Virus record (IMG/VR): IMGVR_UViG_3300025889_000126
Location: 1 to 60,181 of that record
Source: a virus
DNA length: 60,181 nt
Direction: 5' to 3' (one strand)
Shown here: positions 3,358 to 11,866 of the stretch, piece by piece
Numbering within the stretch: the stretch's first letter is position 1
Layout: each line of letters begins with the position of its first letter
Program-made: the position numbers and the translations under genes
Notes under the pieces: generated by a model
Told to the model about the DNA's origin: nothing
What the model saw: only the letters and a program-made list of their open reading frames with translations
The model's database searches: none

Positions 3358-4248
3358 TCAAATCAATTTATTTATCTCCATAGCTCTAATAAGGCGAGTA
3401 ATACCAATACCCCCACCTACTCTTGGGATAAATTTATTTTGCAAGAACTCCTCAAGCTCATCTATCACTCTACTGTAACTGAATAGGTCAAATAGCTTCT
3501 CAGCATATTTGCCATCCTCAATAGAGTAGAACGTCTCCTTCATCTTTTTCGCATCGCAGCTGCGCTCTGCCGATCCTATTGTCTCCTGACCGCAGAGGAT
3601 TACGTCAATCTTTTTAGCAAGACCTGTGTCCTCATTTCTAGCCATATTCCAGAATGGATTGGTACGCTCTGGGAAGTTCATTAACAATACCGCATCAGAA
3701 TGGTTTCTATATAAAGCATTCTCTATGTCATTGTCAATGATACTAACGCCATACTCATTGCATACGTCCTCATACTGCATCTCTTTAAGATCATTAAAGC
3801 CTAAGAATTTTACAAGCTTTTTCTCCATGTCTATAAGCTCGTCCATACCTCCATGAAACTCAAACTCAAACATTGGGAAGATCATGCAGTGGCGACCCTC
3901 GATTGGATACTCCTCATTGCGATAGCTCGTTGACAAGCAGTAGAACCCCTTCTCCTCTGGCTGAGTCAATAGCTCATGCTCTAACCACATCTGCCCAGTC
4001 TGCGGTAGAGGATAGATATTGTGGTTGTAGGTAAAACTAGCAATGCTATGCGGATTCTCGCAGGCTGCCAATATGCTAAGCCTATTTTGAGTGTGTACCT
4101 CAAGCATATCAAATTCATCAAAGAACTGTCTTAATTTTTTTACTACAGCAGTAAATTTTTTTGCGTCAATGTGTGGGTAAAACGATGAATGCAAAGAATG
4201 TTTCATTTTTGAAATTTGTTTTAAATATGAACTAATATTTCTTCCCAT
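3358..4248 (-). CDS. Class II aminoacyl-tRNA synthetase-like enzyme, Asp/Asn type catalytic core only
   Basis: The 296-residue protein aligns by eye with the catalytic core of AspRS/AsnRS. It has LRQFFDEFDMLEVHT (residues 39-53) and LPQTGQMWLEHELL (81-94). Motif 2 is YRNEE...RHCMIFPMFEFEFHG (109-133). FPERTNPF and a GQETIGSAER segment (220-229) follow, then motif 3, GGGIGITRL, with Arg285. The N-terminal OB-fold that reads the anticodon is absent, so it is probably not an ordinary tRNA synthetase. Related free-standing cores are asparagine synthetase A, archaeal asparagine synthetase-like proteins and EpmA (PoxA). It would activate an amino acid as adenylate, but the acceptor is unknown. It overlaps the MazG-like gene by 17 nt. 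Met15 (4206), preceded by an A-rich leader, is an alternative start. Confidence 0.75.
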   Translation of the reverse strand: MGRNISSYLKQISKMKHSLHSSFYPHIDAKKFTAVVKKLRQFFDEFDMLEVHTQNRLSILAACENPHSIASFTYNHNIYPLPQTGQMWLEHELLTQPEEKGFYCLSTSYRNEEYPIEGRHCMIFPMFEFEFHGGMDELIDMEKKLVKFLGFNDLKEMQYEDVCNEYGVSIIDNDIENALYRNHSDAVLLMNFPERTNPFWNMARNEDTGLAKKIDVILCGQETIGSAERSCDAKKMKETFYSIEDGKYAEKLFDLFSYSRVIDELEEFLQNKFIPRVGGGIGITRLIRAMEINKLI

Positions 4249-7646: not shown

Positions 7647-7722
7647 TTAGTGTTAAACTTACACTAACCTTATTGTACTTTTTACAATAACTGATCTTAT
7701 GTTATTGTACTTTTTACAATAA
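7647..7722. promoter_or_regulatory. Cluster of three palindromic operator-like sites
   Basis: TTAGTGT (7647-7653) pairs with ACACTAA (7661-7667). TTATTGTA / TACAATAA with a CTTTT spacer occurs twice (7670-7690 and 7702-7722), with start positions 32 bp apart, about three helical turns. Identical palindromes in tandem are typical of repressor or initiator sites. Confidence 0.65.
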
Positions 7723-7911
7723 GTAACTATTTGCACAAACATAGTTTATAAGCCAATGATTTTTTGTAAACTATTTTGTTATTTATAGTTTACTTTTTAC
7801 TTTCAGACATCGCCCAGGGAACACATAAAAACGTCGTATATATATCTCTTTTCTGCGAGATCCTTTGTCGTATATTGCTATTTATTTCTGCAACGTTGTT
7901 GCATTTAGGTA

Positions 7912-7930
7912 CTTTGCTTACAATCTAAAC
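7912..7930. repeat. 19-bp direct repeat, copy 2
   Basis: Exact second copy of the sequence at 7623-7641, located about 155 bp upstream of the early promoter. Confidence 0.8.
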
Positions 7931-8085
7931 TAAGGTATAACCCCCCTCTTTTTTTCCTCAATCCTAAATTTTTTTTTGCTATCCTCAAAAACTAAGAATG
8001 TAGGTTTTATCGGGCTTTCAGCGTTTTGCTAGTTTTTCGAGTCAAGAAATTTTTAAAAAAAATGAAAATATTTTTCAAAAAAGTT

Positions 8086-8114
8086 TTGAAATAACAAAAC
8101 TAGTCTTAACTTTG
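8086..8114 (+). promoter_or_regulatory. Bacteroidota-type early promoter
   Basis: TTG (8086-8088), 18 bases, then TAACTTTG (8107-8114), close to the TTTG-N19-TAnnTTTG consensus. The predicted transcription start is near 8120. It faces the structured leader RNA and the whole early gene block. Confidence 0.75.
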
Positions 8115-8119
8115 TGACA

Positions 8120-8427
8120 TCCTTAATACATCGGTGACACATTAAGCGGTAGTGTTAAGATACAAAAAAGTGAAGTATTGAAACGGTGTACTATATGTTA
8201 AGTTCATGTCTAACGACAGCGGTTAAAATTCTTAATATATACTAGTGTAACAGTTCTTTTATTTTGTGGGAAATTGGGATGCGCGGCGTAGTCAACTAAA
8301 ATGAGAAAAACGAGCGCGATATATGTACCCGTGTGCATATTATTGGATAAATCGAATGAACAGCGAATTATCGTATCTGTGGGGAACGAGGAGAAACAGA
8401 TATAGAAAACCCAATTTAAAATTTTTT
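8120..8427 (+). ncRNA. Candidate structured non-coding RNA or long structured leader
   Basis: Three structured parts follow the promoter. Part 1: stem 8122-8129 / 8152-8159 (8 bp, one U-G). Part 2: stem 8192-8202 / 8231-8241 (11 bp, one G-U) holding an inner hairpin 8211-8225. Part 3: a junction closed by AAATTGGG / CCCAATTT (8271-8278 / 8410-8417) that contains four adjacent stems. These are 8279-8285 / 8315-8320 (6 bp, one bulge), 8321-8328 / 8333-8340 (8 bp, CCGU loop, one U-G), 8346-8354 / 8364-8372 (8 bp around one A-A mismatch) and 8374-8380 / 8396-8402 (7 bp). A run of six T follows at 8422-8427. The G-U pairs work only in plus-strand RNA. No gene fits here. I recognise no known RNA family. 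Confidence 0.6.
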
Positions 8428-8449
8428 GAGTCTTAATTGGCTTTAGGTT

Positions 8450-8550
8450 ATTGCAATGGATTGCAATGTAAAAAATGATAATCAGCATTTTTTGTCCTAT
8501 ACATTTTGTTTTGGCGAATTGCCTATATAGGTTTTAAGATATATATCTTA
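8450..8550. promoter_or_regulatory. Palindrome cluster before the first early gene
   Basis: ATTGCAATG occurs at 8450 and 8460, exactly 10 bp apart; its first eight bases are a perfect palindrome. CCTATATAGG (8522-8531) and a perfect 16-bp palindrome centred on AAGATAT/ATATCTT (8535-8550) follow. These lie between the end of the structured RNA and the first small gene, where an early regulator could bind. Confidence 0.5.
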
Positions 8551-8608
8551 TTTGGTTTCGATATCAAAATAGGCACAAATTTTTTAACACTATTAAAACT
8601 TTACTAAA

Positions 8609-8707
8609 ATGGAATTCTTACTTTTTATTTGTGCTGTTACATTATTATTTTTAATGTCGGCAAATGGTATTATAAGCGAATATAATAACCAAAAAGATAA
8701 ATTTTAA
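8609..8707 (+). CDS. Small single-pass membrane peptide (32 aa)
   Basis: MEFLLFICAVTLLFLMSANG forms one hydrophobic helix followed by a short polar tail ending NNQKDKF. It is preceded by the same aacactattaaa leader seen before other early genes and ends 26 nt before the next gene. Small membrane peptides are common among early phage genes that act on the host envelope. No family is recognised. Confidence 0.5.
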   Translation: MEFLLFICAVTLLFLMSANGIISEYNNQKDKF

Positions 8708-11380: not shown

Positions 11381-11866
11381 ATGCCAAATTGGTGCAGCAA
11401 TTACACTACATTCAAAGGTAGTAAAGAGAACATTGAAGCTTTGAACAATGCAATAAACAAAGCAATTGAGCGAGAGACAGCTGACAAGCAAGCTCAGACA
11501 ATACACAGCTCAGAGGTAAAAGACGGTTACTTCTTCGACTTGTACAACAATGGTATTGAACATGGAGAGTTGACAATGTTTTACGAGACTAGATGGTGTC
11601 CAAACCTTGACGACTTAGCACTACTCTGTAAAGAATACGGAGTGGATGCAGAGACTGAATTCAATGAGCCTGGATGCCAAGTGTACGGTACTGCAAATGT
11701 ATACTCAGATGGTACATATGTAGATGAGTATGTGGAGCAGGAATTTTTAGACTCTATAGAATGGGATGAAGACACTTGCCTCTACACCTACGATGGAGAA
11801 CAATACGAGTCAATGGGAGATATAATTGCTTATCATTTTAAAACTTGGAAAGAAAAAAACCTATGA
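11381..11866 (+). CDS. DUF1281/Api92-like protein, MPNWC family (161 aa)
   Basis: The start MPNWCSNYTTFKGSKENIEA is the hallmark of a phage and plasmid family with a ferredoxin-like N-terminal domain (DUF1281, Api92-like). The second half keeps the ETRWCPN segment and is strongly acidic (DGTYVDEYVEQEFLDSIEWD). Function of the family is unknown to me. The acidic surface could mimic DNA, which is an inference. Its stop overlaps the next start (ATGA). Confidence 0.75.
   Translation: MPNWCSNYTTFKGSKENIEALNNAINKAIERETADKQAQTIHSSEVKDGYFFDLYNNGIEHGELTMFYETRWCPNLDDLALLCKEYGVDAETEFNEPGCQVYGTANVYSDGTYVDEYVEQEFLDSIEWDEDTCLYTYDGEQYESMGDIIAYHFKTWKEKNL

Follow-up and report, generated by a model that had tools for sequence, protein, structure and literature searches.

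A Bacteroidota phage early operon that opens with a probable boxA-led stable-RNA cassette containing a five-way-junction RNA

In bacteria, boxA shields long untranslated transcripts from Rho, and phage genomes carry structured non-coding RNAs alongside tRNAs or units that resemble them, as in phage tRNA operons, the T4 stable RNAs, GOLLD and ROOL. The boxA motif is the site for NusB/S10 (PMC10250234, PMC5725501), and in E. coli it is both necessary and sufficient to recruit the rrn antitermination factors (PMC10250234). Our study examined an untranslated region in IMG/VR record IMGVR_UViG_3300025889_000126, of which the window analysed covers 60,181 bases. The record represents a Bacteroidota phage whose terminase is 78 % identical to that of a podovirus from Manatee Spring and 45 % identical to those of Flavobacterium elemoviruses. 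Its genes are laid out divergently, with GroEL and other genes running leftward and the early operon running rightward from ~8.6 kb. On balance, the early operon probably opens with a stable-RNA cassette led by boxA, in which a junction RNA would act in trans and tRNA-like elements would be processing sites. The features of the region are as follows.

8085..8114, + strand: Bacteroidota-type promoter, with TTTG at 8085-8088, a spacer and TAACTTTG at 8107-8114, matching the consensus -33/-7 form
8122..8159, + strand: promoter-proximal hairpin P1 in the MFE fold (z -2.2)
8161..8268, + strand: long imperfect hairpin P2 in the MFE fold, with an 11-bp core (8192-8202 / 8231-8241)
8253..8266, + strand: boxA-like antitermination motif GTTCTTTTATTTTG, resembling a motif enriched in Bacteroidota rRNA leaders
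8271..8417, + strand: five-way-junction RNA of 147 nt, from independent MFE folds, covariation and covariance model R1
8271-8278 / 8410-8417, + strand: junction closing stem of 8 bp, AAAUUGGG/CCCAAUUU in the window
8281-8317, + strand: junction hairpin H1, with a conserved apical loop GAAAARC
8318-8344, + strand: junction hairpin H2, with a CCGU loop (CCGW across homologues)
8346-8372, + strand: junction hairpin H3
8373-8403, + strand: junction hairpin H4, with a GGGGAACGAGG loop (GGGAACGWGG across homologues, diverging in L110)
8430..8515, + strand: tRNA-like element 1, degenerate and without a canonical T-loop (covariance model R2, E 1.2e-9)
8521..8574, + strand: tRNA-like element 2 (covariance model R2, E 5.8e-8; covariation over 10 copies)
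8609..8707, + strand: first early-operon gene, directly 3' of the cassette, encoding a 32-aa hydrophobic miniprotein with a homologue in L102

A first-pass annotation of the sequence had placed a Bacteroidota promoter on the plus strand at the head of the early operon, and its match to the consensus bears this out; a similar element was seen by inspection in L003, L004, L102, L104, L109 and L108. The 494 bases downstream of the promoter hold no conserved coding frame, and no conserved ORF was found on either strand of the cassette region among the junction homologues. An antisense ORF of 92 aa (8210-8488) was rejected, as the longest antisense ORF in the homologues is 24-57 aa and is not conserved. 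Short hydrophobic ORFs resembling the product of 8609-8707 (+) occupy the same position in L003, L004, L102, L104, L108 and L109. Between the divergent operons, at 7650-7722, there are three similar inverted repeats (TTAGTGTTAAACTTACACTAA once and TTATTGTACTTTTTACAATAA twice), which are possible operators. The annotation had bounded the RNA at 8086-8427; it overlooked the boxA, and the cassette runs past 8427 to include the tRNA-like elements to 8574.

All of the stems listed in that annotation were recovered in the MFE fold, including the 8-bp stem closing four adjacent hairpins, although the hairpin lengths it gave were approximate (4+3, 11, 5+3 and 8 bp in the fold). Upstream of the junction, a CTGATAC...ATCAG-type hairpin that is the counterpart of P1 was seen by inspection in L102, L004 and L108, while P2, weak on its own (z -1.0), keeps its sequence in L102 and L004 and is missing from L104. 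Folding energy in excess of shuffled controls had been proposed as a check. The stretch 8115-8430 was near chance (z = -1.45; z = -1.0 for 8086-8427) and would fail by energy alone, whereas the junction by itself was better than chance (z = -2.7 for the window's copy, with six homologues ranging from -2.4 to -4.5). The whole-region energy was therefore rejected as proof of structure and covariation was used in its place. The RNA had been assigned to the plus strand, with which the directions of promoter and boxA agree, and for the region as a whole the reverse complement shows no folding in excess of chance; taken by itself, however, the junction gives a good fold on the minus strand too, so that strand assignment rests mainly on promoter and boxA. 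The T run noted after the closing stem exists in the window but is absent in L109 and L104; it is not conserved and was not called as a terminator. No intrinsic terminator or attenuator (a G+C-rich hairpin with a T-run) was called at 8080-8600.

Relatives of the phage were fetched through two of its genes, that for GroEL and the first large one of the early operon (PHROG 2554), and revealed junction homologues in five related phages (L003, L102, L109, L104 and L110) with largely different stems. The closing stem, for example, is ACGUCUA/UAGACGU in L104 and UUACCGU/ACGGUAA in L110. Independent single-sequence MFE folds of the six junction sequences gave the same architecture. In an alignment of these six sequences, all of one lineage, 94.8 % of cells were paired and 32 of the 43 junction pairs had changed on both sides, compared to a shuffled mean of 15.8 and with none of 500 shuffles reaching the observed count; when the partner was slid by 1-3 columns as a control, double-change pairs fell to 4-12. 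The alignment was fitted to the model, which favours structure, but the independent single-sequence folds are free of that bias. A covariance model built from four sequences recovered the unused, most divergent L110 (E 2.2e-17) and L104 (E 6.3e-13) in 918 kb. Thus the expectation that base pairs would be kept in relatives was confirmed by compensatory change, a covariance model could be built from related phage genomes and it finds homologues left out of it. The structured RNA at 8271-8417 is real.

The annotation knew of no RNA family of this shape, and our searches agree. Rfam 15 gave no match in the whole window and, under a permissive setting, 7900-8650 drew no hit at E values of 5 or below. 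The junction model yielded nothing beyond noise (E 0.009) in 296 Bacteroidota genomes, where one bacterial-genome candidate (L268) was inspected and dismissed, and in 50 whole viral records significant E values fell in known carriers only. Loop-based scans of viral contigs, followed by model checks, revealed no further lineage with the junction, and no match was seen in the 49 of 60 kb scanned of the cultured relative elemovirus MT497069 or in the 31 of 61 kb scanned of Manatee Spring phage MW202828. Patchy presence among relatives, together with the degeneracy of the tRNA-like copies, is what a decaying tRNA or stable-RNA island with no present function might leave behind. We regard such decay as highly improbable, because compensatory changes have preserved the stems across a large divergence and the loops are fixed, which needs selection.

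In each carrier, GTTCTTTKAYWTTG or a near variant of it stands immediately 5' of the junction, and the forms seen in the phages are GTTCTTTTATTTTG and GTTCTTTGACATTGT. Of 15 leaders of Bacteroidota 16S rRNA, 11 have the motif GTTCTTT[GA] within 300 nt, where shuffled sequence would give 0.27, and by its sequence the phage motif fits boxA, the NusB/S10 site. A host-type boxA thus lies in an untranslated leader, as in a boxA-led (rrn-type) transcription unit. In each of the six phages that carry the junction it starts 16-20 nt 5' of the closing stem, and it is present in 7/7 cassette phages (six among the GroEL loci examined, plus L003). Among the GroEL loci examined it is missing from ~37 cassette-free relatives, save for one weak match in L141, and in the seven of these relatives whose leaders were examined only ~50-110 nt separate the promoter from a coding ORF. 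Absence of boxA where leaders are short is expected if boxA is needed only where long untranslated RNA is transcribed. The match in L141, which has no cassette, and the partial pairing of boxA in the MFE fold both count against a boxA-led stable-RNA unit.

The near-fixed distance of boxA from the structured RNA also recalls the way boxA precedes boxB in nut, and the cassette sits just 3' of an early promoter, as do nut and put (PMC9378689). This raises the possibility of a cis-acting processive antiterminator, in which boxA and junction would work together as a nut- or put-like element, loading Nus factors for read-through of the whole early operon, perhaps with an added phage protein or by direct contact with RNA polymerase; the conserved apical loops could bind a protein. 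We consider this reading, the strongest of the rivals, rather unlikely. L108 has the same first genes with no cassette, and ~36 more relatives have no boxA; a 147-nt five-way junction is far from the ~70 nt and two stem-loops of HK022 put; neither nut nor put has tRNA-like elements; and the same boxA heads tRNA genes in other phages. The presence of the same first genes in L108 indicates that the cassette is dispensable, so that any benefit is conditional.

Two observations touch on possible protein partners. At 11381-11866 (+) the window encodes a 161-aa protein with a DUF1281_C (Api92-like) domain, which is present in all sampled RNA carriers; as a partner candidate it has to be read with the fact that the closest non-carrier contig, L108, ends before this locus. 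The 296-aa product of 3358-4248 (-) resembles class II aminoacyl-tRNA synthetases, with a weak likeness to EpmA/AspRS, and lacks the length for an anticodon-binding domain. Coupling of the RNA to this gene was rejected, as the gene is absent in carrier L003 and present in the RNA-free L108.

The tRNA-like elements lie 3' of the junction or, in L004, directly 3' of boxA. In general they consist of an acceptor-like stem, a linker with a GG in it, one or two hairpins, and a T-arm with a UUCRA loop; element 2 of the window (8521-8574) has the acceptor-like stem GCCTAT/ATAGGC, the GG-containing linker, a hairpin and a T-arm with a UUUCGAUA loop. Model R2 matched the carriers, with two copies each in the window, L102 and L003 and a weak match in L110 (E 0.015), and found nothing else significant in ~1.1 Mb and nothing in 148 Bacteroidota genomes. 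Across ten copies, 22 of 25 pairs showed double changes, a count reached by 0/500 shuffles. The elements therefore have the covarying elbow of a tRNA-like structure, a T-arm and T-loop on an acceptor-like stem, except that element 1 of the window has no T-loop. As tRNAs they fall short: tRNA models find no cloverleaf, and there is no normal anticodon loop. Neither ARAGORN nor the Rfam tRNA model called them, and their 3' ends are RCTAAC or RCAAAT with no CCA, both of which count against the stable-RNA reading, as does L004, which has no junction and yet keeps boxA and one tRNA-like element. Most simply, a tRNA-like element may be modelled as a processing site.

By reading, 26-40 nt separate the end of a tRNA-like element from the first start codon in 7/7 carriers. 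This position within the 5' leader could suit a cis-regulatory leader of the first early genes, riboswitch-like or acting by translational control, an explanation that we find improbable: the junction itself ends 81-224 nt before the start codon, no conserved terminator or antiterminator and no sequestering of the start codon was seen, the T-run is not conserved, and the gene 3' of the cassette is a different one in L110. The earlier annotation had offered three roles, namely a small RNA acting on the host, a protein-sequestering RNA and a leader controlling early genes. On comparative grounds, a stable RNA that acts in trans seems more likely than a leader on which the early genes depend, since relatives run their early operons cassette-free with short, ordinary leaders.

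A stable-RNA unit is favoured over an early-gene regulator by the computed co-occurrence of boxA and cassette, the absence of boxA where leaders are short, the dispensability of the cassette and the occurrence of boxA before tRNA genes elsewhere. Such a unit would be built like a miniature rRNA/tRNA operon, with host RNA polymerase starting at the Bacteroidota promoter. We infer that the nascent transcript uses its boxA to recruit host NusB/S10 and their partners, which would keep the ~490-nt untranslated leader from being cut short by Rho, and that the 5' strand of the closing stem, held near boxA, may then allow the long-range closing stem to form and the junction to fold. One or more tRNA-like elements would mark where host tRNA-processing enzymes detach the RNA from the early mRNA; the first start codon of that mRNA lies 26-40 nt further 3'. 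The released junction RNA is predicted to act in trans early in infection through its loops, H1 GAAAARC, H2 CCGW and H4 GGGAACGWGG.

When viral contigs were scanned separately for GTTCTTTGAYWTTGTNGG, the form of boxA used by the phages, a tRNA gene was seen 6-11 nt 3' of boxA in L341, L348, L357, L362 and L383, and boxA followed by a large structured RNA and then tRNAs in L356/L397/L408 (near-identical) and in L398/L379 (related). In L339, boxA is followed by a degenerate tRNA with a perfect T-arm and then a start codon, a layout as in the window. These figures are plain counts of contigs, and most other GTTCTTTGAYWTTGTNGG matches apparently lie within coding sequence and are probably due to chance. 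The RNA that follows boxA in L398 (12492-12780) and L379 (2778-3080) is multi-branched, ~200-250 nt long and closed by a helix of >20 bp, with tRNA genes after it; Rfam gave no match to it.

Furthermore, loci of sister phages contain 13 hammerhead-like ribozymes, each 13-21 nt upstream of an ATG, with a CUGANGA and GAAA core, stem I as GGUUAA/UUAACC or GGCAAA/UUUGUC, and variable stems II and III. They were not listed by Rfam in the sister-phage loci searched.

L005, 4350-4404: hammerhead-like ribozyme
L006, 4191-4269: hammerhead-like ribozyme
L007, 4932-4987: hammerhead-like ribozyme
L009, 4587-4643: hammerhead-like ribozyme
L010, 3599-3653 and 4932-4987: hammerhead-like ribozymes
L008, L143, L155, L159, L160 and L174: hammerhead-like ribozymes at further loci

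By analogy, these ribozymes would be another route to a free mRNA 5' end, parallel to the processing suggested for the tRNA-like elements.

In summary, this locus carries a structured RNA family that is absent from Rfam, shows strong covariation, is found in common aquatic Bacteroidota phages and is tied to boxA. More tentatively, it is possible that phages carry boxA-headed stable-RNA operons which borrow host rRNA antitermination for large early non-coding RNAs, with the junction as a novel kind of phage RNA acting in trans and the covarying tRNA-like elements as its processing signals. If phages generally express stable RNAs through boxA, then boxA plus structure would be a simple sequence handle across viruses, and general use of boxA would connect Nus factors with early transcription in phages in a way that can be tested.

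Among known systems, the cassette resembles the bacterial rrn leader in having a host-type boxA and then a structured RNA with a long-range closing helix, the 5' strand of which lies close behind boxA, and in carrying tRNA-like units in the same transcript. It differs in being phage-encoded and without rRNA, with protein genes downstream and an RNA of 147 nt, and the likeness is one of sequence and fold. Lambda nut also places boxA ahead of structured RNA close to where an early operon begins, but its boxB is just one small hairpin, to which N binds, whereas the RNA here is far larger and no N homologue was identified. HK022 put is also a structured RNA 3' of an early phage promoter; as described in PMC9378689, it needs no dedicated protein and its ~70 nt form two stem-loops, a description that the five-way junction does not fit. 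With phage tRNA operons and stable RNAs the cassette shares the boxA found here before tRNA genes in other phages, although the window has no Rfam covariance-model match and its tRNA-like units cannot decode. With tRNAs and tRNA-like structures, finally, its elements share an acceptor-like stem stacked on a T-arm, a UUCRA-type loop and a GG-containing D-like region, but they differ from tRNA in having no D-stem, normal anticodon loop or CCA and in falling below detection by ARAGORN and Rfam.
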